A stretch of DNA of 64,000 nt, from assembly GCF_030506285.1 (NCBI RefSeq), contig NZ_CP119422.1, positions 2,604,001-2,668,000 of the forward strand, read 5' to 3'. Below, in pieces: positions 36,835-48,370 of the stretch (within the stretch, counting starts at the first letter, position 1; each line of letters begins with the position of its first letter). Under the pieces are notes generated by a model. That model searched no databases and had not been told where the DNA came from. It saw nothing but the letters and a program-made list of their open reading frames with translations. A program made the position numbers and the translations under genes. Origin of the DNA: Catalinimonas niigatensis (GTDB lineage Bacteria; Bacteroidota; Bacteroidia; Cytophagales; Cyclobacteriaceae).

Positions 36835-38262
36835 TTACTCCACCACTTCTATCTTTTCAAAGCTGGTTTTTGGTGCTCCACAGACTGCACAATGATAATC
36901 CTTATCTAAACTGGAAAAGGGCGTACCAGCCGGAATCTGCTGCGTCTCGTCGCCGTAAGCTTCATCATACATGCTGAGGCAGTCTGTGCACTGGTAGATT
37001 ACCTTTCTACTCTCTGCTGTCACCAGTTTGGTCTCATCTGGCATAAATGTTCTTCCGGTATTGAGCTGCTCGTAATATCGTTTGCTCAACTCAATCAGCA
37101 GGGAAGGAATGATATCTCTGCTGATGCCTTTGGCAAAGTAGTAGAATTCAAAGAGGTTTGGATTGAAGTCTTTGGCATACAGGATGTTGTAGAGATAAGG
37201 TTCATCTTCCTTTTCCGTATCTTTTCTTTCTATGACCACAGAAGTGAAAAGCACCACATGCTTCTGGGTTTTGATGGAAAAAGTAAGTCCATAGGTGCTG
37301 ATGTCCTGCTGGTCCAGGGCACGTACCAGGTAATTTTTCAGGTCCAGCGCATCCTGGTCCGCTACCGGCAGGTGCCAGTTGAGTTCCAGAGAGGAATGTC
37401 GCATGTTGATACCGTACTTACCCAGTATCTTCTCCCACTCCAGCTTGTCTTTTTCTCTTACCCCCTTAAACAGAATAGATTTCCAGGGCGTAAGGCAGAT
37501 GATTCCGATATCTGTCTTCAGGCACTGCTGACATAGCACTTCCAGAAACTTGGTGGTAAAGCGGTTATTCCGCCAGTAGAGGCCCATCCAGTACTTATCG
37601 CTTTCTCCCCGATTGATCCCTTCAAAATAGGGAAATACCATTTCCGGAGATTTCAGCGGCTGCCTGATGGCATGGGTATTAAAGTGCAATTCTGCTTTGA
37701 GCCTGTCGTAGAGGTCGGGAAAGGCAAGTTGATTCTCTACTGGCTTCAAACCTTCTATGGCCTTGGCTACTTTGGCCAGATCAAAACCGTAAATGAGTTC
37801 CGGACAGCACCAGGGTTTGGAGCCTAATACCGAATAGCGAATGTACAAGTACCAGTAATTGTCAATGGTGGAGGCCACAAAATTGATGTTCCCGGTAAAC
37901 AGAGGAACCATGCCCTGCACCGGGTCCGTGATGTTGATTTTATGCGAAGGCTCGTAATCAAAGCTATCCAGCACATAATGGTAAATATGAGGAGCCAGCC
38001 AGGAGGTGGAAGGGACCACATCCAACGTCACATAAGAGCTCACAATATTTTCCCGCTCCTTGCTATCATGTTCATAAGCCAGAGGCAACTGGCTAAGGGT
38101 AGTGTTGACTTTCTCAGCGTTTCGCTCCTGCACAGGAAAAAGTATATCCTGACGAGCACCCAGATGTACATAATCCGAACCCAGTTCCTGAGCGACTTCA
38201 ATCACTTTAGCAAAATCTCCCGGAGATATGATCCCGCCTTTTGCAAAAACTCTGACCAGCAT
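36835..38262 (-). CDS. Nitrite/sulfite-reductase-like half-domain protein with C-terminal rubredoxin
   Basis: I chose the ATG at 38262 (475 residues). The upstream ATG at 38334 lies within a palindrome and would add a non-protein-like leader. The N-terminus LVRVFAKGGIISPGDF...VHLGARQDILFP matches the ferredoxin-like half-domain of nitrite/sulfite reductases, and a second copy seems to follow after about residue 270. The Cys sets that bind siroheme-[4Fe-4S] in true reductases are not seen. The C-terminal 60 residues are a rubredoxin with C425-TDC428 and C458-AVC461. It lies after nasA and probably donates electrons in nitrate or nitrite reduction. This role is inferred. Confidence 0.75.
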   Translation of the reverse strand: MLVRVFAKGGIISPGDFAKVIEVAQELGSDYVHLGARQDILFPVQERNAEKVNTTLSQLPLAYEHDSKERENIVSSYVTLDVVPSTSWLAPHIYHYVLDSFDYEPSHKINITDPVQGMVPLFTGNINFVASTIDNYWYLYIRYSVLGSKPWCCPELIYGFDLAKVAKAIEGLKPVENQLAFPDLYDRLKAELHFNTHAIRQPLKSPEMVFPYFEGINRGESDKYWMGLYWRNNRFTTKFLEVLCQQCLKTDIGIICLTPWKSILFKGVREKDKLEWEKILGKYGINMRHSSLELNWHLPVADQDALDLKNYLVRALDQQDISTYGLTFSIKTQKHVVLFTSVVIERKDTEKEDEPYLYNILYAKDFNPNLFEFYYFAKGISRDIIPSLLIELSKRYYEQLNTGRTFMPDETKLVTAESRKVIYQCTDCLSMYDEAYGDETQQIPAGTPFSSLDKDYHCAVCGAPKTSFEKIEVVE

Positions 38263-38321
38263 CTTTCTTGTTTTAATGAAAAAGCAATATCCATGACAAA
38301 CTAAAAATACACAAACATATG

Positions 38322-38355
38322 AGTGTAAGAGCATGATTAATCATGTTCTTACACT
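38322..38355. repeat. 34-bp near-perfect palindrome at the nasA stop codon
   Basis: AGTGTAAGA (38322-38330) pairs with TCTTACACT (38347-38355). Between them CATGATTAATCATG (38332-38345) is a perfect palindrome, and the pair 38331/38346 is a G.T mismatch. It overlaps the nasA stop (38349-38351). It is probably an intercistronic mRNA hairpin, and no T-run follows. Confidence 0.7.
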
Positions 38356-41300
38356 TTAATCATCAAATGCTCATCTATCAAAGCTTTGAGCTCGGGCTTA
38401 CAACTACCACAACCCAAGCCAGCCCCCGTCGCCTGACACAAAGTTCCCAGTTGATGCGCTCCTCCGGTAATGGCTTCTTCCAGATTGCCTTTGCCTACAT
38501 TGCCGCAAGAGCAAACCAGCTTACCTTTCACTACTTTGGATGGTCCGCCGCTTCTAAGCAGTTTTTCACGGGTATCTCCCAATTCTGTTTTCTCTTCTAT
38601 CAGGCTTTTAAACTCGGCAAACTCCGATTTGTCTCCCATCAAAATAGCGCCTACCAACCTGTCGTGATGGATGATACACTTTTTGTAATAAGCTCTGGAT
38701 TTGTCCAGGAAGATGATTTCCTCATATTCGTGCCGGTTGTGATGCGGGATTTCTGCAATACCTACTGAGCAAAGATCCAGATGCGAAAATTTGAGGATAT
38801 TCATGGGTGTAGATCCCTGGTACATGCTCAAAGGATCACCGGCAATATAACGGGCGGCAATATCTGCCTGCTGTTCAGCCGCCGCTGTGATACCCAGCAT
38901 TTTCTCCCGATGCTCAGCAATCTCACCCAAGGCAAAGATATCAGGATCTGAAGTTTGCAGATAATCATTAACTTGTACTCCTCTCCCACAGGCCAGTTGG
39001 GTTTCACGCGCCATTTCAATATTTGGGCGGGTGCCGATGGCATACACCACCGCATGACAAGTGATAGACTTACCACTTTTAAGACGTGCCTGTATCGGTT
39101 GATTGGGTTCGTGAGGTTCAATCAACTGTACCTGATCGTTCATTTGCAGGTGAATACCCATTTCTTCTACTTTCTCACGCAGCAGAGCACTGGCGGTATG
39201 GTCCAGTTGACGTTCCATCAGCCTTGAGGCAAGTTGTACGATAGTCACTTTTACGTTCATTTCCAGCAAAGCGGCCGCCAATTCCAAGCCCAGCAGACCG
39301 CCTCCTACAATGATCACATGCGCATGATTGGGCAGATAGTATTTGAGTTTATCAGCATTATCCCGACTGCGCATGGTAAAGATGCCCGGATAGTGTATAG
39401 GCACATCGCCCGGTACAAAAGCCCGACTTCCGGTAGCCATGACCAGTATATCGTAAGTATGTTCTTTCTCATCAGCATCGGTAACCGTTTTTTGCTGGCG
39501 GTCTATGGAGGCAATGGCGTTGGAAGGGTGCAAATGCACGTTGAGCTTCGCAAACTCCTCCGCCGTTTTAAACTTCATCAGGTCCTGCCAGCTCAGGCTG
39601 TCGTTGATGTATTCAGGCAGCAGCACCCGGTTATAGAAAGGGTATTCTTCTTTGGAAAAAACATGAATTTCATCCTCCTGATTTAGTTCACGGTAGGTAT
39701 TGATAAAACGATAGGCCGCTGCTCCAGCTCCGATGATGACAATCTTTTGTCGGGTTTTGGTTACTTTGGCTACCTGTACCGCAGAAAACTTAAAGTCAGG
39801 TTCTTTGGACACCGGATCGTAGAGGTTGTTGGTCAGGTTATTGGCCCTGCCAAAATCTTTCTGTAATATTTTACCCCAGTGCATGGGCAGAAAAACCACT
39901 CCTTTTTTGATATCTTCCGTAACCTTCGCTTTTACTTTGACCTCTCCCCTGGAATTGCTGATCACCACCACATCATCCTCTTTGATATTTCTTGCCAAAG
40001 CATCCTGAGGATGGATTTCCAGAAAGGGCTGGCTGATGTGTTTCCTGAGCTTCTGCACCTTCCCGGTTCGGGTCATGGTATGCCACTGATCGCGTACTCG
40101 GCCAGTGGTGAGGATGAGTGGGAAATCAGGAGTGACAGCTTCCGAAAGGTTGGCGGCCCCGCTGGCCTGTATCTGTGCTCTATGGTTGGGCGTGTAAAAC
40201 TTTTTATCTTCAAAAAGACGAGGCGTTCCGGGATGACCTTTTTGAGGAACCGGCCATTGCATCGTACCCTTGTCTTTCAACACCTCATAATCCAGACCGG
40301 AAATGTCTATGTTAGTACCTTTGGTCAGCGCACAGTGCTCGGCATAGACTTCAGCCATAGAGGCATAGTCAAATCCGTGAAAGCCCATTTTTTGGGCAAA
40401 GCGAATCAAAATTTCCGCATCGGGCAGGGCTTCTCCGGGAGCCTCTATAACTTTCTCCAGGTAGCTGATCCTTCTTTCAGAATTGGTCATGGTGCCTTCT
40501 TTTTCCAGCCAACCGGCAGCAGGCAGTACCAGATCCGCATAGGCTACCGTATCCGAGCGATTGGAAATATCCTGTACCACCACGAAAGAGGCCTTTTGCA
40601 AGGCTTCCTCAATTTTACGCGCATCGGGCAGACTCACCAATGGATTGGTACAGATGATCCAGACGGCTTTCATTTTTCCTTCCCGCAGGGCATCAAACAT
40701 CTGGGTAGCCGTAAGTCCGGGTTTGTCAGCAATCTGCTCCACACCCCAGAAATCTGCTACTTCCTGCCGATGATTGGCATCCAGCAGATTGCGGTGGGCT
40801 GCCAGCAAACTGGCCATCCCTCCTACTTCGCGTCCCCCCATCGCATTGGGCTGTCCGGTAAGTGAAAAAGGCCCCGAACCGGGTTTACCAATATGTCCGG
40901 TAATCAGGTTGAGGTTGATCAGCGCCAGATTTTTATTAACTCCGGAAGCACTTTGGTTAAGACCCATTGCCCATAGCGTCAGAAAGCCTTTGGCATTACC
41001 AATGTATTTGGCAGCCAGCATGATCTCATCTATCGGCACATCGCAAATCGCTGCCGCTTCCTGTAGAGTAGTCTGCATGACCTCTTTGCGATAGACTTCA
41101 AAACCATCGGTGTGGCTGCGGATAAAAGCCAGGTCTATATCGCCCTGCTCAATCAGGCAACGGCCAATGGCATGGTAGAGCACCGTATCTGTGCCCGGGC
41201 GAATCTGCAAATGTAAATCAGCCAGAGCACAGCTCTGCGTCTTGCGAGGGTCTACCACAATGATCCTGGTATCCGGATTTTGCTCTTTATGCTTTTCAAT

Positions 41301-41861
41301 GCGACGAAACAGAATCGGATGGCACCAGGCAGGATTGGCCCCCGCAATGAAAAAGCAATCGGCCTGCTCAATGTCGTCATAGCAAATGGGTACGGCATCT
41401 TCACCCAGAGTTTTGGCATAGCCCGCCACAGCCGAACTCATGCACAGTCTGGAATTGGTGTCTACATTGTTGGTACCCAGGAAACCTTTGGTAAGCTTAT
41501 TGACCAGATAATACTCCTCTGTCAGACATTGACCCGACACATAAAAACCTACCGAATCCGGTCCATAGTTACGGATGAGTGATTTGAAAACCGCTGCAGC
41601 TCTGTCCAGTGCTCTATCCCAGCTGACTTTCTGCATGGGTGCAGAGCGGCTCCAGCGCATTTGCGGATGCAGCAGGCGGTCGCTGCGGTCTTCTGCCACA
41701 TAGTGCAGGTTCATGCCTTTAGAACAAAGCATCCCTTTATTGACAGGATGATCAGGATCACCGGCCACCGTGACCTTTCCCTGTCGGTCTTTGTTGACCA
41801 GAATGCCACATCCTACCCCACAGTAGGAGCAGGTAGTACGAGAGGTGGATGTTTGTTTCAT
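38349..41861 (-). CDS. nasA: Assimilatory nitrate reductase fused to FAD/NAD(P) reductase and BFD [2Fe-2S] domains
   Basis: I chose the ATG at 41861 (1170 residues), which puts the [4Fe-4S] cysteines C11, C14, C18 and C46 near the N-terminus. The first about 690 residues are a molybdopterin oxidoreductase of the NasA/NapA type. A pyridine nucleotide-disulfide-type domain follows, with the FAD motif IVIIGAGAAA near 706 and the second GxGxxG segment VIIVGGGLLGLELAAALLE. The C-terminus is a BFD-like [2Fe-2S] domain (C1117, C1119, C1151, C1154). Known systems use separate NasA and NasB/NarB electron-transfer chains, so this one-chain enzyme can carry electrons from NAD(P)H to nitrate. It is the central gene of the nitrate cluster, between narK and the rubredoxin fusion gene. 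Confidence 0.9.
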   Translation of the reverse strand: MKQTSTSRTTCSYCGVGCGILVNKDRQGKVTVAGDPDHPVNKGMLCSKGMNLHYVAEDRSDRLLHPQMRWSRSAPMQKVSWDRALDRAAAVFKSLIRNYGPDSVGFYVSGQCLTEEYYLVNKLTKGFLGTNNVDTNSRLCMSSAVAGYAKTLGEDAVPICYDDIEQADCFFIAGANPAWCHPILFRRIEKHKEQNPDTRIIVVDPRKTQSCALADLHLQIRPGTDTVLYHAIGRCLIEQGDIDLAFIRSHTDGFEVYRKEVMQTTLQEAAAICDVPIDEIMLAAKYIGNAKGFLTLWAMGLNQSASGVNKNLALINLNLITGHIGKPGSGPFSLTGQPNAMGGREVGGMASLLAAHRNLLDANHRQEVADFWGVEQIADKPGLTATQMFDALREGKMKAVWIICTNPLVSLPDARKIEEALQKASFVVVQDISNRSDTVAYADLVLPAAGWLEKEGTMTNSERRISYLEKVIEAPGEALPDAEILIRFAQKMGFHGFDYASMAEVYAEHCALTKGTNIDISGLDYEVLKDKGTMQWPVPQKGHPGTPRLFEDKKFYTPNHRAQIQASGAANLSEAVTPDFPLILTTGRVRDQWHTMTRTGKVQKLRKHISQPFLEIHPQDALARNIKEDDVVVISNSRGEVKVKAKVTEDIKKGVVFLPMHWGKILQKDFGRANNLTNNLYDPVSKEPDFKFSAVQVAKVTKTRQKIVIIGAGAAAYRFINTYRELNQEDEIHVFSKEEYPFYNRVLLPEYINDSLSWQDLMKFKTAEEFAKLNVHLHPSNAIASIDRQQKTVTDADEKEHTYDILVMATGSRAFVPGDVPIHYPGIFTMRSRDNADKLKYYLPNHAHVIIVGGGLLGLELAAALLEMNVKVTIVQLASRLMERQLDHTASALLREKVEEMGIHLQMNDQVQLIEPHEPNQPIQARLKSGKSITCHAVVYAIGTRPNIEMARETQLACGRGVQVNDYLQTSDPDIFALGEIAEHREKMLGITAAAEQQADIAARYIAGDPLSMYQGSTPMNILKFSHLDLCSVGIAEIPHHNRHEYEEIIFLDKSRAYYKKCIIHHDRLVGAILMGDKSEFAEFKSLIEEKTELGDTREKLLRSGGPSKVVKGKLVCSCGNVGKGNLEEAITGGAHQLGTLCQATGAGLGCGSCKPELKALIDEHLMIKV

Positions 41862-41894
41862 AAAGATATGATGTGAAAAATTGTTTTGTAGGAT

Positions 41895-41938
41895 CATGAC
41901 GGTTTGACACGTAATTAATCGCATGGCGAACCGTCATG
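41895..41938. repeat. Inverted repeat between narK and nasA
   Basis: CATGACGGTT (41895-41904) and AACCGTCATG (41929-41938) are perfect 10-bp arms with a 24-bp loop. The loop contains CACGTAATT, resembling one half of the heptamer sites upstream of neighbouring genes. It may be an mRNA hairpin or a regulatory site 34-77 bp before nasA. Confidence 0.55.
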
Positions 41939-41951
41939 GTCTTACGATATT

Positions 41952-43310
41952 TCATGCACGGACAGGTTTTAGTATCAGTTCTCCCTTTCTTTCTGCTAAT
42001 GCATGTTCCATTTCTACCTTTGCCTCTTTTTCTGCGGATGTAGAGAAGCGGACGGCCAGTGATAATACCGATACACCGGTTACTACAATTCCCATGATGG
42101 TCAGGGCTTCCGGATAGCTGAGGCTTTCGGATTTGAAGAGGAAACCTGCCGCTACTGCGCCTGCATTACCACCGGCACCTACAATACCGGATATCGCGCC
42201 TACTGCTTTTCTGTTGATGAAAGGAACAACAGAGTAAGTGGCTCCTTCCGACATCTGTACAAACAGACTGAAGATGATCATAGTGATAATAGCCAGAGGA
42301 AGGACAGTCATTTTAGAGAAAATGATCAGAGCAATTCCTTCTACCAGTAGTGCAAGGCCTAAAAATCCTACTCTACCTTTCAACCCCCATTTGATACCGG
42401 CTTTGTCGCCAAAGAAGCCTCCCAAAGAGCGGGCAAAGATGTTCATCAGACCGAAGAGACCAGCGATCAGACCGGCAGTTTTAAGATCCAAAGTAAAATA
42501 ATCGTGATAGTAGATGGCAGCGATGTTATTGATGGTCAGTTCCACGCCGAAGCAAGCTCCGTAGATCAGAAACAAAGCCCAAACTCGATAATCTTTCAGC
42601 GCTGCTTTGAAAGCTCCTTTACTTTCCTGGCTTTTACTTTTGAAGGCAGGATCATTTTCTCTAAGGTCTTTTAGGTTTCCTGCGGGCAGGTCAGTCGTAA
42701 ATTTGTAGTAGAGGAAACCACAGATGATCATGGCGATGCCGGGAACGACCATGGCATATCGCCAAGCAGTGGTATCTACAAAACCCAAGCCTACAAAAGC
42801 GGCGAAGATCAAAGGCATCACCATCTGGGTAACGCCACCGCCCAGGTTACCCCAGCCGGCAGTGGTGGCATTGGCCGTGCCTACTACATTGGGTGCAAAC
42901 ATCATGGAAGTGTGGTATTGGGTAATCACGAATGAAGCACCGATCACCCCAATCGCCAGCCTGAACATCAGGAAAGACTCATAGCTGTTGCTCAGTCCAA
43001 TCAGCATGACCGGAATAGAACCAAGGATTAGCAAATAGGTATAGGTAATCCTGGGACCGATTTTATCGCAAAGCCAGCCAATTGCCAGGCGGGCAAATAC
43101 CGTAATGGCTACCGATGATATGATAATATTACCGATCTGTGATTTTGTCAGATCCAACTCATCACGCACCACGGCCATTAAGGGAGCAATGCCGAACCAG
43201 CCAAAGAAGCATAGAAAAAAGGCAAACCATGAAAGGTGAAAGGTACGCATATGGATCGTCTTCAGATTGAAGAGCTTGATTGACGTCGCTTTTTTAGAAG
43301 TAGTTTTCAT
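41952..43310 (-). CDS. narK: NarK/NasA-type nitrate/nitrite MFS transporter
   Basis: The 452-residue protein has twelve membrane helices. Arg74 in FARLAIGWLCDKIGPR corresponds to the substrate-binding arginine of NarK. Two nitrate-signature segments are present, AGWGNLGGGVTQ and AGGNAGAVAAGFLF. These residues distinguish nitrate/nitrite transporters from other MFS proteins. It imports nitrate across the inner membrane for the reductase encoded 90 bp downstream. An inverted heptamer site lies 116-131 bp upstream of the ATG. Confidence 0.92.
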   Translation of the reverse strand: MKTTSKKATSIKLFNLKTIHMRTFHLSWFAFFLCFFGWFGIAPLMAVVRDELDLTKSQIGNIIISSVAITVFARLAIGWLCDKIGPRITYTYLLILGSIPVMLIGLSNSYESFLMFRLAIGVIGASFVITQYHTSMMFAPNVVGTANATTAGWGNLGGGVTQMVMPLIFAAFVGLGFVDTTAWRYAMVVPGIAMIICGFLYYKFTTDLPAGNLKDLRENDPAFKSKSQESKGAFKAALKDYRVWALFLIYGACFGVELTINNIAAIYYHDYFTLDLKTAGLIAGLFGLMNIFARSLGGFFGDKAGIKWGLKGRVGFLGLALLVEGIALIIFSKMTVLPLAIITMIIFSLFVQMSEGATYSVVPFINRKAVGAISGIVGAGGNAGAVAAGFLFKSESLSYPEALTIMGIVVTGVSVLSLAVRFSTSAEKEAKVEMEHALAERKGELILKPVRA

Positions 43311-43425
43311 CTGTTTATAATTTTGATTTTATCGGTCAGATGGAACCTCGCATGAGAATCATTTTCCTTCGGGAGAAACTCTTGCTCATACTCGGTTTCA
43401 TAATACAATGAATGGTTTAAATTTC

Positions 43426-43441
43426 TACGTAATGTTACTTA
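43426..43441. promoter_or_regulatory. Inverted heptamer site upstream of narK
   Basis: TACGTAA-TG-TTACTTA is a 7-2-7 inverted repeat, with one mismatch between arms. It overlaps the porin stop codon and is 116 bp from the narK ATG. Related sites precede the porin and the sensor kinase genes. Confidence 0.5.
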
Positions 43442-44721
43442 GAATAAAAAGTAGGTTTGATGGTGATCATCGCCCAGGCCCATTGATTCAGCCCTTTGCG
43501 ATCAGCACCGCCTTTGACCGCCTCCAGCGATTGAGTAGAGAAAAGCTGAGAATAGCCCAGTTTAAAATTTACTTCGGGAGTAAGATTCAGATTGTACACC
43601 AGATCAATTTCTTCACCCAGGATGGAAGCCAGTTTTTCCCCTGTACCTTCTGCCGCATAAATCGTCGTGGGTGAGTGAAAGTGATGAAAATGCGTTATCA
43701 AGGCAGATTTCTGTCCGAGCTTGAATTTAGACTGCACATAGAAGTCAAGTAGCCCGGCAGTTTGCCCGTTTTGACCGTGATTATTACCTACATAGAAGTA
43801 GTCCATGAAGCCGTAAAACTTGTGATTGGTACCGTACAAAGGATTAAAAGCATGGTTCATATCATCAGTCGGATTGGTGCCGGAAAGGTAATCCACCCCG
43901 ATGGTAAGCGGCGTAATGCTGGTATTCATGGTGGCATTGATCGCAGCCAGCCAAGCACTCACCTTTTTACCCGCAGGGTCTTTGCCTCCTTGGTAGTACA
44001 ACTCACCACCCAGTTTGACAGCTCCCAAGCTTTTATCCCCGATAAATCCATAGGTCTGTCGGAAAGCCAGGGTGGAATCCGAACGCTGACGGCCATCATT
44101 AAAAATCAATAAGGAAGCCTGAGCACTGGCCCAATCCTTATGCAGCCAGAAGTACTGCATGGTTTTGTAATTGTCTACTCCTTCATAGAAAGTAGAGGAA
44201 AGTTTACTTGGCTCAAAAGGTACATTTTGGTTGTATGCCGCAGCGGCATGAAAAGTAAAACCACTGCTGTCTTTGTAGATGTACCTGACTGCATCATGAC
44301 TTCTGCCCTGCTGCGCCCAATCCAGATCGCCCAGGAAGCGCGCATTATCATAATCCAGCGCCTGTCGGCCCACCCGCAGTGATGATTTAACATTGAAATG
44401 ATATTCTCCCCAGGCTTCGTAAATGTTGGTAAGTGCTGGGTCCGATTTATAAATCTGGCTGGCATTTCCCCAAATACGTACATCTTGCAGACTCAAGTGG
44501 AAGCCCACTTTATCCTGCTGATAGTCCAGATAGATGCGAGAGCGCTGTTCTATGAAAAAAGCTGGGGCGTGAGCTTCGGTGTTGATGGTTTTGAAGCCAT
44601 CCCTGAATTCAGTTCTGGGACGAATTTCACCACTGACAGTAAATTGTGCCTGAGCAAACTGTATGACACTCCATGACAGGAGCAGCAGCAAGATGATTCC
44701 TTTGGTAAATGTTCGATTCAT
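43435..44721 (-). CDS. Outer-membrane porin of the alginate-export (AlgE-like) family
   Basis: The 428-residue protein has a signal peptide (cleavage after FAQAQ, about residue 25) and then amphipathic strands of a large beta-barrel (FTVSGEIRPRTEFRDGFK..., SRIYLDYQQDKVGFHLSLQDVRIWG..., SLRVGRQALDYDNARFLGDLDW). The GRQALDYDNARFLGD segment is typical of alginate_exp barrels. The name of the family is historical. In this setting it is a likely anion porin that admits nitrate through the outer membrane. It lies between the regulators and narK on the same strand, with its own upstream heptamer sites. Confidence 0.8.
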   Translation of the reverse strand: MNRTFTKGIILLLLLSWSVIQFAQAQFTVSGEIRPRTEFRDGFKTINTEAHAPAFFIEQRSRIYLDYQQDKVGFHLSLQDVRIWGNASQIYKSDPALTNIYEAWGEYHFNVKSSLRVGRQALDYDNARFLGDLDWAQQGRSHDAVRYIYKDSSGFTFHAAAAYNQNVPFEPSKLSSTFYEGVDNYKTMQYFWLHKDWASAQASLLIFNDGRQRSDSTLAFRQTYGFIGDKSLGAVKLGGELYYQGGKDPAGKKVSAWLAAINATMNTSITPLTIGVDYLSGTNPTDDMNHAFNPLYGTNHKFYGFMDYFYVGNNHGQNGQTAGLLDFYVQSKFKLGQKSALITHFHHFHSPTTIYAAEGTGEKLASILGEEIDLVYNLNLTPEVNFKLGYSQLFSTQSLEAVKGGADRKGLNQWAWAMITIKPTFYSK

Positions 44722-44823
44722 GGTTTGATAGTTGGATGAGGTTAAACCAAACGTGATCCCGGGTTACGCATTCCGGATTACGTATTCCTGACCGACAGAT
44801 CAAAGGTATAAACAAAATTTATT

Positions 44824-44843
44824 TTTACGTAATTTTACGTAAA
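44824..44843. promoter_or_regulatory. Perfect inverted heptamer site upstream of the porin gene
   Basis: TTTACGTAA-TT-TTACGTAAA is a perfect 9-2-9 palindrome containing the 7-2-7 core TACGTAA-TT-TTACGTA (44826-44841), about 105 bp before the porin ATG. Single heptamers TTACTTA follow at 44878-44884 and 44928-44934. The remainder of the gap 44722-45088 is AT-rich and shows no gene. Confidence 0.6.
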
Positions 44844-45088
44844 TAATATTTTGAAAAAGATGATTTTGACAGAATATTTACTTAGAAACAAGCTAGTTTT
44901 AAGAGATTTTCAGGATTTAACAGATAATTACTTAGTTATTGTTAAACCATTAGCTTTAGAAAAGGGAGAAATGAACATGCAGTAAGCCTCTCAGACACAC
45001 TGCTTCTATTGAAGATAACAGCAGCAGTGAGCACTATATTTAAAAAAGCTCAACTATAAGAAGATATTGAGTGGCTTATCCTGAATGG

Positions 45089-45700
45089 TTACTCTTTCAG
45101 ATCGTCGGGTGTATTGAAATTTTTGAAAAGAGGAAGCAGGGCGGCAGGTACTTCCAGTACCTGGGCATGCAGTACATTTTTAATGATTGCATGCATACTT
45201 TGATCTTCTAACTGTCCCTGCTGATAGAGCGTATGCAATTTTTTCAGCGCATGATGGCTATAGATACCGCAGAGTGGCTGGAGTTGATTTTCAGCCTTAC
45301 ATACTACCACGGGTTCCATCTGCTCCTGCTGCTGAAAAGTCTTTATCCACCAGTAAAAAACCTCTGCATTGAGCATTAGCATGTCGCAGGGCAGCAAAAG
45401 CAGGTGCTTGTCCGGAAAAGCCTGATGGGCGGAGAGGATGCCTTTCAAAGGGCCATTGATATGCAGAAAGGAGGAATTATCCAGAATGAGCTTCTGAGGC
45501 GGCAGCACCGCTTCGTAGGGCATTTTTTGCTCCAGATTGATGGAAACATATACTGGAAGAGGTACTTCGGCTAATTTTTGTTGTAAGGCTTCTACCCAGC
45601 CCATGCCATCATTTTGGAGCAGTCCTTTGTCCTGTCCCATCCGACGACTTTGGCCACCACTCAGAATGATTGCAATCAGATCTTGAGGTATGTTTTGCAT
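45089..45700 (-). CDS. mobA: Molybdenum cofactor guanylyltransferase
   Basis: The protein (ATG at 45700, 203 residues; a GTG at 45724 is possible) begins IILSGGQSRRMGQDKGLL, the nucleotide-binding signature of MobA. PLKGILSAHQAFP and LLLPCDMLML also match. It links GMP to molybdopterin to form the MGD cofactor used by nitrate reductases of the NasA type. It lies directly behind the regulator gene, so the nitrate system makes its own cofactor enzyme. Length is typical. Confidence 0.9.
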   Translation of the reverse strand: MQNIPQDLIAIILSGGQSRRMGQDKGLLQNDGMGWVEALQQKLAEVPLPVYVSINLEQKMPYEAVLPPQKLILDNSSFLHINGPLKGILSAHQAFPDKHLLLLPCDMLMLNAEVFYWWIKTFQQQEQMEPVVVCKAENQLQPLCGIYSHHALKKLHTLYQQGQLEDQSMHAIIKNVLHAQVLEVPAALLPLFKNFNTPDDLKE

Positions 45701-45725
45701 AATTGAATCCTTATGAGTTAACACT

Positions 45726-46397
45726 TTACTGGGCCAAAAATTCTTTCAGTCCTTTATCTTCTTCTACCTTTTTTAATAGTTCTACCACATTGTTCACATC
45801 CAGTTTCTTCATGATGTTGAAGCGGTGGGTTTCTATGGTCCTTACGCTTTTGTTGAGGCGTTCTGCAATTTCCTTATTTCCCACGCCATCCGTGAGCAAC
45901 TGCAAAATCTGCTTCTCCCGCTTGGTAAGCTCATAATCCTGTGCTTCAGCCTGCGCAGCAGGTGTCGACTGTTTTTTAACGTTAAGATAGCTGTCGATAA
46001 ACACCCGGGCCACGTCTGCGCTGAAGTACTTCTCTCCACGATGGACAGTACGTACGGCTTTCAGAAACTCTTCTTTGCTTGAACCTTTTAGCAGATACCC
46101 GGAAGCACCACTTTCAATGGCTTGTAGCACATAGTCTTCATCATCATGCATGGAAAGGATAAGCACCTTGGTGGACAAGCCTGATTTACGTAATTGTTCA
46201 GTTACCTCCAATCCGGACATGATAGGCATACGTACGTCCAGAATAGCCAGTTCAGGAGTTAGTTTTTCAATTTGCTGCAAAGCTTCCTCTCCGTTCTCAG
46301 CTTCTACAATAACCTGAATATCACCTTCACTCTCCAACAGTGACTTAATACCACTCCTTACTACCCCATGATCATCGGCTAAAAGTGTTCTAATCAT
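45726..46397 (-). CDS. NarL-type response regulator (REC-LuxR HTH)
   Basis: The ATG at 46397 gives MIRTLLADDHGVVRSG, the normal receiver start (223 residues). Phospho-acceptor Asp54 is in AILDVRMPIMSG, and the C-terminal LuxR/FixJ helix-turn-helix includes LTKREKQILQLLTDGVGNKEIAERLNKSVRTIETHRFNIM. The start overlaps the kinase stop by 8 bp, so the two are coupled. With the NarX-like kinase it is expected to bind inverted sites, and the 7-2-7 heptamers near this locus are good candidates. Confidence 0.9.
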   Translation of the reverse strand: MIRTLLADDHGVVRSGIKSLLESEGDIQVIVEAENGEEALQQIEKLTPELAILDVRMPIMSGLEVTEQLRKSGLSTKVLILSMHDDEDYVLQAIESGASGYLLKGSSKEEFLKAVRTVHRGEKYFSADVARVFIDSYLNVKKQSTPAAQAEAQDYELTKREKQILQLLTDGVGNKEIAERLNKSVRTIETHRFNIMKKLDVNNVVELLKKVEEDKGLKEFLAQ

Positions 46398-48231
46398 ATC
46401 TTTTTTTCCTTCCATTAATAGATACGTGTATGTTAATGCGCGTTCCTTTTCCTTTTTCGGACTGTAGTTCAAAGGTACCATTAATATACGTCGTTCTTTC
46501 CTGCATATTCAGAATGCCTAAGCCAGTCCCATCACTACTTTCCTTTTTCTGGTAATGGTCATAATCAAAGCCAACCCCATTATCCACAATTTCAATATTG
46601 AGATAGTGGGCTTTATGACTAAACTCTACCTTAATTTCATCTGCCTGAGAGTATTTAATGGCATTGTTTACAGCCTCCTGAATGATGCGGTACAGATTGG
46701 TTTCTATGTTTTTATCCATACGATTGATAAAACCTGTCTTGTTTTCAAAAACTACGGTTTTATCAGATAAGCGGCTGGCTTCGGCACAAAACCTGCGGGT
46801 AACGGGAACCAAACCATAATCACTGAGCGCGCTGGGATTTAGGTTAAAAGAAACTCTTCGTACTTCCCTTATTACCTGATTGAGCATCTTCTGAGCATCC
46901 CTTACTTTGGCTTCTCTGTCCGGCATGTCAGGCGCTAAATTAATATTTTCGATAGTAAACTTAAGCGCAGTCAGTAATTGCCCTATACCATCATGAATAT
47001 CCCTTGAGATACGTTTTCTTTCTTCTTCCTGTCCTTCCAATACCAGTACTGAGCGAAAGCGTTGTTCTTTGAGCTCTTTTTCAATTTTATCTTTAATCAA
47101 CTCATGTGATCGTGCTTCTGCCTCTCTTCTTTCTGTTTTGTTGGTGCAAATAAAATTCAGGGAGTCTATCTCCTGCAAGTCATTAAATGTTGGAACAATG
47201 GTAGAATCCAGCCACACAAAATCCCCTTCATCAGAAGTAGCTTTTACTTCACCATACCATGTCTCATTTCCCAACACCATGTGATGAATATTTTGCACCT
47301 GATCATGGGCATAGCCTTCCTGCTCTAACCAGGCAAACAAATTGCAGTTATTTTCGTGAGGATAGTTTCCAAGAATTTCAGCAAACTGGTCAGAAACATA
47401 AGAGAAATCACCGGAAGGATAAGTTTTAGCAAAGACCGTAGGTTGATCCTCTTTGACATCCACCTTGGCTAACTCCTGATAAGATTTCTCGAGTGAACTG
47501 TACAAAGCACCCATTTCATAAGACATATCTCTGGCCAGCTTTTCCGATCTCATGAGTTCATCAATTGTCGTACGGATCTTTCGGGCAGTAGGGCGAAATA
47601 TGAAGAGCAGCTCGAAAAGAATGATAGTAAGTGAAATACCCAGTAAAATCAGTTCAATTACTTCCAGAAATAACACCCGCTCCCGGGCTTCATCATCATA
47701 CTGGAAGACAATGTCATCCATGCTTTCCAGAAATCCCGACTCATTGGCGAGAATCTGTTGGATGTGGGGCTGAAGTTGCGTGGTATCTATCGCTCTATTT
47801 TGATATAATAGTTGCAGTATACGCTGCGCATGAGCTACAATCGTTTCATAATAGGGAGTCATCGCCTGATACATAGAATCTACTGTAGCACTTTTCTCAC
47901 CGATTACGCCCAGCTCTTCATCTCCATTTAGCAAGCCCTGATGAGATTGAGTCCACGAAGAAAGAGCCTCACGTAGTTGGGCAGCATGTTTCTGTCGTTC
48001 TTCTACCTGATCAGTATTTGCGATCTGCAAAGCCAACTTGCTGATTTTCTGGCTCAGCATACGTTGCCTGCCCGCCAGGTTTACAATGCGGGAATCATAC
48101 TCCTGCTTACCGATGTAGCGCTGAATAAATAATTGGCTGATGATAATGGCAGCCGCAATGCCAGACAATGCCAATGCATACAGCACTCCTACTCTTTCAA
48201 ATCCATGCTTCCTTTCATGCTTATTTTGCAT
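46390..48231 (-). CDS. NarX-like sensor histidine kinase with PilJ/NarX P-box sensor and PAS domain
   Basis: The protein has 613 residues from the ATG at 48231. One membrane helix at about 18-38 and another at about 190-212 bracket a periplasmic four-helix sensor. The segment RIVNLAGRQRMLSQKISKLAL (about 48-69) is a PilJ/NarX-type P-box, the nitrate/nitrite-binding signature of NarX and NarQ. A PAS domain follows at about 270-390, then a HisKA_3 dimerisation helix with His413 (RISRDIHDGIGQLL) and an HATPase_c domain with DNGVGFDY. It lacks a HAMP motif that I can recognise. Adjacent genes suggest that nitrate or nitrite is the signal, which is inference. Confidence 0.85.
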   Translation of the reverse strand: MQNKHERKHGFERVGVLYALALSGIAAAIIISQLFIQRYIGKQEYDSRIVNLAGRQRMLSQKISKLALQIANTDQVEERQKHAAQLREALSSWTQSHQGLLNGDEELGVIGEKSATVDSMYQAMTPYYETIVAHAQRILQLLYQNRAIDTTQLQPHIQQILANESGFLESMDDIVFQYDDEARERVLFLEVIELILLGISLTIILFELLFIFRPTARKIRTTIDELMRSEKLARDMSYEMGALYSSLEKSYQELAKVDVKEDQPTVFAKTYPSGDFSYVSDQFAEILGNYPHENNCNLFAWLEQEGYAHDQVQNIHHMVLGNETWYGEVKATSDEGDFVWLDSTIVPTFNDLQEIDSLNFICTNKTERREAEARSHELIKDKIEKELKEQRFRSVLVLEGQEEERKRISRDIHDGIGQLLTALKFTIENINLAPDMPDREAKVRDAQKMLNQVIREVRRVSFNLNPSALSDYGLVPVTRRFCAEASRLSDKTVVFENKTGFINRMDKNIETNLYRIIQEAVNNAIKYSQADEIKVEFSHKAHYLNIEIVDNGVGFDYDHYQKKESSDGTGLGILNMQERTTYINGTFELQSEKGKGTRINIHVSINGRKKRYD

Positions 48232-48261
48232 AGGGTAAAGAAACAAAAAATAACGATAAGT

Positions 48262-48277
48262 TACGTAAAATTACTTA
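48262..48277. promoter_or_regulatory. Inverted heptamer site upstream of the NarX-like kinase gene
   Basis: TACGTAA-AA-TTACTTA is a 7-2-7 inverted repeat, 31-46 bp before the kinase ATG. The flanks extend it to GATAAGT...ACTTATC (48255-48279), a second symmetry. The core is nearly identical to the sites before the porin and narK. Confidence 0.6.
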
Positions 48278-48370
48278 TCAATTAGAAGCTGAAACAGAAT
48301 TGTCAAAATTATATGAAGGGCAGATACTAATGATTTCAGTAAAGTGAATATTTTTTCCTGACCCTTCATT

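Follow-up and report, generated by a model that had tools for sequence, protein, structure and literature searches.

TACGTA-N4-TACGTA, a probable operator of nitrate and nitrite assimilation genes in Catalinimonas niigatensis and other Bacteroidia

The window analysed here is a 64,000-nucleotide stretch of the Catalinimonas niigatensis genome (NZ_CP119422.1, positions 2,604,001 to 2,668,000), and it carries on its minus strand a nitrate locus in which one inverted DNA word recurs upstream of several genes. This repeated word is probably the landing site of the nitrate-sensing regulator encoded beside it, and we establish here the sites, their rarity across the genome, their conservation, their co-occurrence with the sensor kinase, and their spacing and phasing. 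The genes of the locus, in window positions, are the following:

46390..48246, minus strand: histidine kinase with a PilJ (NarX-like) sensor carrying the P-box GxxR, a weak PAS domain, HisKA_3 and HATPase_c
45726..46481, minus strand: response regulator, receiver plus GerE domain (LuxR/NarL/FixJ class), the proposed binder of the sites
45089..45724, minus strand: MobA-like molybdenum cofactor guanylyltransferase, directly downstream of the regulator gene
43435..44721, minus strand: outer-membrane porin (Pfam Alginate_exp; no NCBIfam match)
41952..43310, minus strand: NarK-family nitrate/nitrite transporter of the major facilitator superfamily (TIGR00886, above cut-off)
38349..41924, minus strand: assimilatory nitrate reductase (nasA), a molybdopterin domain fused to NirB-like reductase domains (NasC model below cut-off)
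36835..38334, minus strand: nitrite/sulfite reductase ferredoxin-half protein with a rubredoxin end, with no site of its own

Judged by its genomic place, the porin may have a role in nitrate use. The original prediction, made from the letters alone, had proposed that three copies of TACGTAA-N2-TTACKTA (two inverted heptamers separated by 2 bp) lie upstream of the kinase, porin and narK genes, that the porin copy is a perfect 9-2-9 palindrome, and that a half-like copy precedes nasA. These features are:

48262..48277, minus strand: kinase-gene site, TAAGTAATTTTACGTA on the gene strand, 31 bp upstream of the called start; candidate operator
44826..44841, minus strand: porin-gene site, with the exact core TACGTA-N4-TACGTA; perfect palindrome, 9-2-9 with its flanks; candidate operator
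43426..43441, minus strand: narK site, overlapping the porin-gene stop codon; candidate operator
41908..41916, no strand assigned: the half-like copy CACGTAATT before nasA; unsupported as a regulatory site

The three full sites were found exactly where they had been placed, with zero mismatches to TACGTAANNTTACKTA, and the palindrome was borne out by eye. Three exact matches in the window compare with a mean of 0.00 in 100 dinucleotide-preserving shuffles. The half-like copy fared worse: it lies one base away from the position given for it, and it is not present before nasA in the three relatives read.

Scanning the whole genome (a single contig of 7,134,482 bases) for frequent random occurrence of the exact pattern showed that it is not frequent, with 4 places against 0 for the reversed-pattern control. 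The fourth place (C1:4868527-4868542) lies 2.2 Mb from the window sites, in the divergent gap between nirB (TIGR02374, 1081 bits) and cobA/SUMT, encoding uroporphyrinogen-III methyltransferase (TIGR01469, 278 bits). All four exact places in this genome are thus at nitrate, nitrite or siroheme genes: the kinase gene, the porin gene, narK and nirB/cobA. Each of the other two genomes of the genus has exactly two exact-pattern places, one before nirB (beside cobA in one genome and met8 in the other) and the second before the porin gene. In most relatives nirB and the kinase gene adjoin; here nirB-cobA lies elsewhere, and the kinase gene has its own site.

Conservation before orthologous genes, on which the original prediction also turned, was found at family, order and class level. 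Our family sample comprised 148 genomes, with nirB found in 52, the NarX-like kinase in 49 and both in 48; genomes are called kinase-bearing or kinase-less below according to whether this kinase was found in them. For each of the 52, the DNA upstream of nirB was read over about 220 bases (340 in G071), with shorter stretches at some contig ends and a gap of Ns in L117. The best match to TACGTA-N4-TACGTA in the 48 kinase-bearing genomes was exact in 31, had one mismatch in 14 and two mismatches in 3, so that 45/48 have a site with at most one mismatch (shuffle expectation 0.1) and 48/48 with at most two (expectation 1.1). In the four kinase-less nirB genomes (G017, G031, G076 and G101, from 3 genera) the best match had 4-5 mismatches, giving 0/4. 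Counted by genus, a nirB site with at most one mismatch was present in 30/33 kinase-bearing versus 0/3 kinase-less genera.

A matrix built from the 48 best nirB sites holds 25.8 bits, a value slightly inflated by choosing the best sites, with GTA-N4-.AC invariant and with the third and fourteenth positions accepting C/A and G/T. The half-site therefore reads TAMGTAA. TACGTA-N4-TACGTA describes the motif better than the original pattern, whose A-N2-T centre is a preference and not fixed. In this form the porin site at 44826..44841 is the only exact core in the C. niigatensis genome.

Sites also stand before other genes of the family loci fetched for nirB or the kinase (300 bases upstream of each gene; the site-fetched loci L127-L141 and L146 left out). 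With at most one mismatch, they precede cobA in 36/38 kinase-bearing loci, mostly in the gap shared with nirB, versus 0/3 kinase-less; the porin gene in 17/22 versus 0/3; and narK in 6/16 versus 0/4. The second half of the narK site is degenerate in 2 of the 3 relatives read. The kinase gene itself has a site with at most one mismatch in 8/45 kinase-bearing loci and with at most two in 22/45, while nasA (2/17 kinase-bearing loci) and met8 (1/5) seldom have one at the stricter threshold. Across the four kinase-less loci, 0/22 upstream regions hold a site with at most one mismatch. No site was found before the rubredoxin-ended reductase gene (0/19 relatives), nor, with at most two mismatches, before mobA (0/9 loci) or the regulator gene (0/46), and these zeroes at gene-internal upstream regions serve as negative controls. 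A site before mobA or before the regulator gene is rejected, and mobA may ride in the kinase transcript. The proposal that one regulator governs nitrate uptake, reduction and cofactor synthesis thus stands as regards the conserved sites at nitrate, nitrite and siroheme genes, and does not as regards a site before mobA.

Across whole genomes the exact core is present in 38/49 kinase-bearing genomes (76 places) and in 18/99 kinase-less ones (34 places), against 14 and 29 places, respectively, for its reversed control. These counts are given as run, with G061 among the 18 although it holds a kinase fragment at a contig edge and an orthologous regulator. Among the matches listed in kinase-bearing genomes we hand-picked 14 exact cores away from nirB (L127-L140), of which 11 (L127-L137) are at nitrate genes or their Crp/Fnr regulator and three (L138, L139 and L140) are not; four picked in kinase-less genomes (L142-L145) include none at nitrate genes.

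The Crp/Fnr regulator of some nitrate loci could itself be the protein that binds the palindrome, in place of a two-component regulator. A 5-N4-5 geometry would suit that family, and in L128, L132, L133 and L134 the exact core immediately precedes a Crp/Fnr gene that is followed by a porin gene, while in L129 it lies between a Crp/Fnr gene and a porin gene. Its distribution does not fit a general binder, a role that we reject: a close orthologue (at least 60% identity) is present in only 13/49 kinase-bearing genomes and, at that level, is absent from the window's genus, whereas G076, whose nirB has no site, does possess it. We consider this explanation very improbable. The Crp/Fnr gene is more likely a target of the same regulon in some genera, and possibly a second tier of it.

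The association extends beyond the family. The kinase was found in 35/291 genomes of an order-level sample, and the 20 order loci read (18 of them outside the family, 2 within it; shuffle expectations were computed for the family nirB loci) have a nirB site with at most one mismatch in 14/16 cases, or 12/14 outside the family. At the same threshold the porin has a site in 8/11, nasA in 5/15 and narK in 4/9 of these loci, and one locus of 59% G+C keeps an exact porin site. The named relatives Agaribacillus and Imperialibacter belong to the Cytophagales according to the NCBI taxonomy. In a class-level sample the kinase was found in 7/375 genomes, five of them outside the order, and there the nirB sites are weaker (at most one mismatch in 2/5, at most two in 5/5). 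L177, with 61% G+C, has several TACGTA units before nirB with other gaps, and a Lewinella metagenome-assembled genome (L149) has single units before the porin gene and no site with at most two mismatches.

Single units are also abundant in the family. The 48 kinase-bearing nirB upstream regions contain 127 TACGTA versus 2.8 expected from mononucleotide shuffles, and 4 of the control hexamer ATGCAT; none was found before nirB in the four kinase-less genomes. Unit-to-unit distances peak at 10, 20-23, 31-33, 41-43 and 52-56 bp, that is, at whole helical turns. Two elements near the porin site of the window illustrate this geometry and that of the promoter:

44879..44884, minus strand: additional TAAGTA unit, four helical turns (43 bp) ahead of the porin site
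44801..44808, minus strand: TACCTTTG box, a match to the Bacteroidetes -7 element TANNTTTG, located 17 bp downstream of the porin site

In G001, G002 and G072 the extra TAAGTA is kept, at 43, 43 and 42 bp upstream, respectively, and the 17-bp gap between the porin site and a box fitting TANNTTTG is identical in the window and in these three genomes. The -7 consensus TANNTTTG and its numbering, with T at -12, were taken from the accessible part of PMC6847099. Across 87 sites located 65 bp or more from the start codon and 41 offsets (the site-fetched loci L127-L141 and L146 included), we matched TANNTTNG at 32 site-offset combinations, with 17 at 17-20 bp, 8 at 29-31 bp, 5 at 10 bp (all cobA) and 2 elsewhere; with a slightly looser -7 box a single offset collected 11 matches, and 500 shuffles gave no more than 5. 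Under the numbering given in that part of PMC6847099 the site centre falls at about -37.5, overlapping the -33 element. A sigma-70 promoter scan of the region showed no excess (15 versus 12.7 in shuffles), as expected since the promoter type differs.

This geometry bears on the direction of control. The sites could be real and act in repression, the regulator shutting the promoters when nitrate is absent or ammonium present. A distance of 28-46 bp between site and start codon, as seen for several nirB genes, would suit such an arrangement, and E. coli NarL both activates and represses. Conversely, a gap of 17-20 bp between site and box places the centre near -37, the position of a class II activator, and the same gap recurs in four porin promoters. 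We therefore regard repression as unlikely, and favour a mostly activating role.

The two proteins proposed to act through these sites have the domains that such a role would call for. The kinase sensor matches PilJ/NarX-like PF13675 (1.6e-15) with a P-box, VNLAGRQRM, that fits N-x-A-G-x-x-R, and its HisKA_3 domain (PF07730, 1.2e-12) has HDGIGQ, fitting H-D-x-x-x-Q; no HAMP or GAF domain was found in Pfam at E 0.01, and PAS_9 matched only below cut-off. The P-box GxxR is kept in 71/74 kinases in which the region aligns, comprising 71/71 of the co-located kinases, the other three being a second paralogue. The regulator, which the original prediction had rightly assigned to the LuxR/NarL type, combines a receiver (PF00072, 7.2e-29) with a GerE helix-turn-helix (PF00196, 3.7e-18) and so belongs to the NarL/FixJ class; it scores below the NCBIfam cut-offs for both NarL (156 bits, cut-off 250) and FixJ (88.7 bits, cut-off 255), and among solved full-length relatives E. 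coli NarL is the closest to it (1a04, E 4e-36). Among 71 regulators of these loci, residues S212, R214, T215, E217 and R220 of the recognition helix are invariant, H219 is kept in 70/71 and F221 in 65/71. By alignment, this helix reads TIETHRFN in the regulator and TVKVHVKH in NarL, and at what we take to be the base-contacting positions of NarL the NarL residues differ from those of the regulator. In kinase-less nirB genomes the best relatives of the regulator are more distant and have other helices.

It is also conceivable that an unlinked regulator travelling with nitrate assimilation reads the site while the adjacent pair controls something else, since co-occurrence alone cannot name the binder. 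Yet in most loci read the pair adjoins nirB or other genes of nitrate use, the four genomes without the site lack the pair, the recognition helix is invariant, and the half-site resembles that of FixJ, a regulator of the same class. We hold this alternative to be improbable. The link between regulator and site is drawn from co-occurrence, recognition-helix conservation and likeness to the FixJ half-site. This regulator as binder, nitrate as signal and activation as effect are what we infer. TACGTA-N4-TACGTA is very probably the operator of a nitrate/nitrite assimilation regulon run by a PilJ-type kinase and a NarL/FixJ-type regulator, mostly activating. In the mechanism that we propose, the NarX-like kinase would sense periplasmic nitrate and phosphorylate the neighbouring regulator, a dimer of which would bind two inverted TAMGTAA half-sites and mostly activate from a position near -37 or from a further helical turn upstream. 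The predicted targets are nirB, cobA/SUMT and porin-narK-nasA and, in this genome, also the system's own kinase-regulator-mobA genes.

E. coli NarXL/NarQP resembles this system in pairing a P-box nitrate-sensing kinase with a NarL-class regulator, and in the extra single units of its promoters. NarL also binds two inverted heptamers with a 2-bp gap (7-2-7), so the comparison made in the original prediction held for geometry, whereas the half-site proved closer to that of FixJ. The NarL heptamer is TACYYMT, from which TAMGTAA differs at positions 4 and 7, and an engineered site of NarL type reads TACCCCTAAAGGGGTA. Unlike NarXL, the system described here has assimilatory targets, Bacteroidetes-type promoters and a kinase without HAMP and GAF, as is known for Bacteroidetes. 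FixL of the alphaproteobacterial FixLJ system senses oxygen and drives nitrogen-fixation genes. The FixJ half-site GTAMGTAG and its 16-bp site TAAGTAATTTCCCTTA, as they appear in the accessible part of PMC4999443, nearly equal TAMGTAA and TAAGTAATTTTACGTA; the first ten bases of TAAGTAATTTTACGTA and TAAGTAATTTCCCTTA are identical, and M stands in the same place. In contrast to FixJ sites, the site here is far more symmetric and is used in helically phased arrays.

The part of PMC8199190 available to us describes Bacteroidetes nitrate-sensing kinases that likewise have the sensor, lack HAMP and GAF, have PAS in a Cytophagales/Flavobacteriales subgroup and neighbour narK and nir genes, and that part gives no DNA site or regulon for them. 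Such kinases are therefore known from surveys, and a non-exhaustive search of the open-access literature yielded no described DNA target and no earlier report of the motif or regulon, which is weak evidence of absence since subscription journals are mostly missing from it. What appears to be new is a NarXL-like nitrate regulon reading a FixJ-like word, a helically phased operator on Bacteroidetes promoters. The interpretation offered in the original prediction is supported, and its observation was real and understated. The site allows nitrate control to be predicted from sequence in these genomes, supplies test promoters, and provides a nitrate-inducible part for use where the host does not support E. 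coli promoters.

Several observations weigh against the regulon as we propose it. The exact original pattern occurs in 26/148 family genomes and its reversed control in about 20 (a manual count), so that signal can be told from chance by location alone. Searching the site loci with tblastn placed the pattern beside nirB in 17 of the 26 genomes; in three others it stands about 520 bp upstream of narK, immediately behind the regulator gene and before a globin gene, respectively, and 6/26 have no query gene near the site. In three kinase-bearing genomes (G099, G142 and G084) the best nirB site has two mismatches and is weak in two of the three, and in G099 the kinase is on another contig than nirB. 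The sample holds only four kinase-less nirB genomes, and since the sequences are related the counts are not independent. In 46 loci, no site within two mismatches of the core stands before the regulator gene itself. The kinases of L081 and L087 align only from the PAS/kinase part on, without PilJ, yet their sites are kept. Finally, for 87 sites the -7 box matched at only 32 site-offset combinations, leaving the promoter geometry unproven for many, and less than 35 bp separates several nirB sites from the start codon, which would suit repression too; activation is for these reasons a lean.

With up to three mismatches allowed, the window holds 11 matches against a mean of 6.94, a number reached by 15 of 100 shuffles and so not above chance, which might suggest that the motif is a chance or AT-rich sequence artefact. 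Against this stand its genome-wide rarity, the excess and spacing of the units, the zero count of the exact pattern in window shuffles, the site kept in a region of 59% G+C, and above all conservation before nirB, which already refutes chance; we regard this explanation as practically untenable.

A broader reading of the operator model, which we put forward tentatively and with rather less than even confidence, is that the word may be an old nitrate-assimilation code of the class Bacteroidia. The TACGTA unit is orientation-free because it is its own reverse complement, and placed at whole helical turns (10, about 21-22, 32, 42-43 and 53 bp) it might let one PilJ-kinase/FixJ-like regulator build dimers and cooperative arrays on one DNA face. 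Regulator and operator would have been gained and lost together, and a second paralogue, its P-box arginine lost, would have turned to ammonium-transporter control.

A second kinase-regulator pair of the same type was observed beside an ammonium transporter and a BBP2 porin at G000:C1:6540267-6542057 (L124:8216-10709) and in L125 and L126. The P-box of these kinases lacks the nitrate-binding arginine (GRQS, GQQA and GRQN), the regulator's recognition helix is nearly unchanged, and no core site with fewer than two mismatches lies nearby. L137:2056-2982 encodes a PilJ-sensor protein without a Pfam kinase domain, with an exact core upstream and nasA behind. As for a replacement operator in the kinase-less nirB genomes, AGG...CCT dyads were seen by eye, and in a local scan of the nirB upstream regions dyads turned up in L107, L108 and L109, not in L115; the searched pattern AGGNTAANNNTTANCCT, which described these dyads poorly, occurred in 55/148 genomes with a control that was often higher, and such an operator was not established. 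The kinase-less genome G013 has six exact core places; in L145, its only locus that was read, two of these are 24 bp apart and no nitrate gene is present. In G067 (L141:2001-2612) two copies of the site precede a single-domain globin gene, which hints at control by nitrosative stress.

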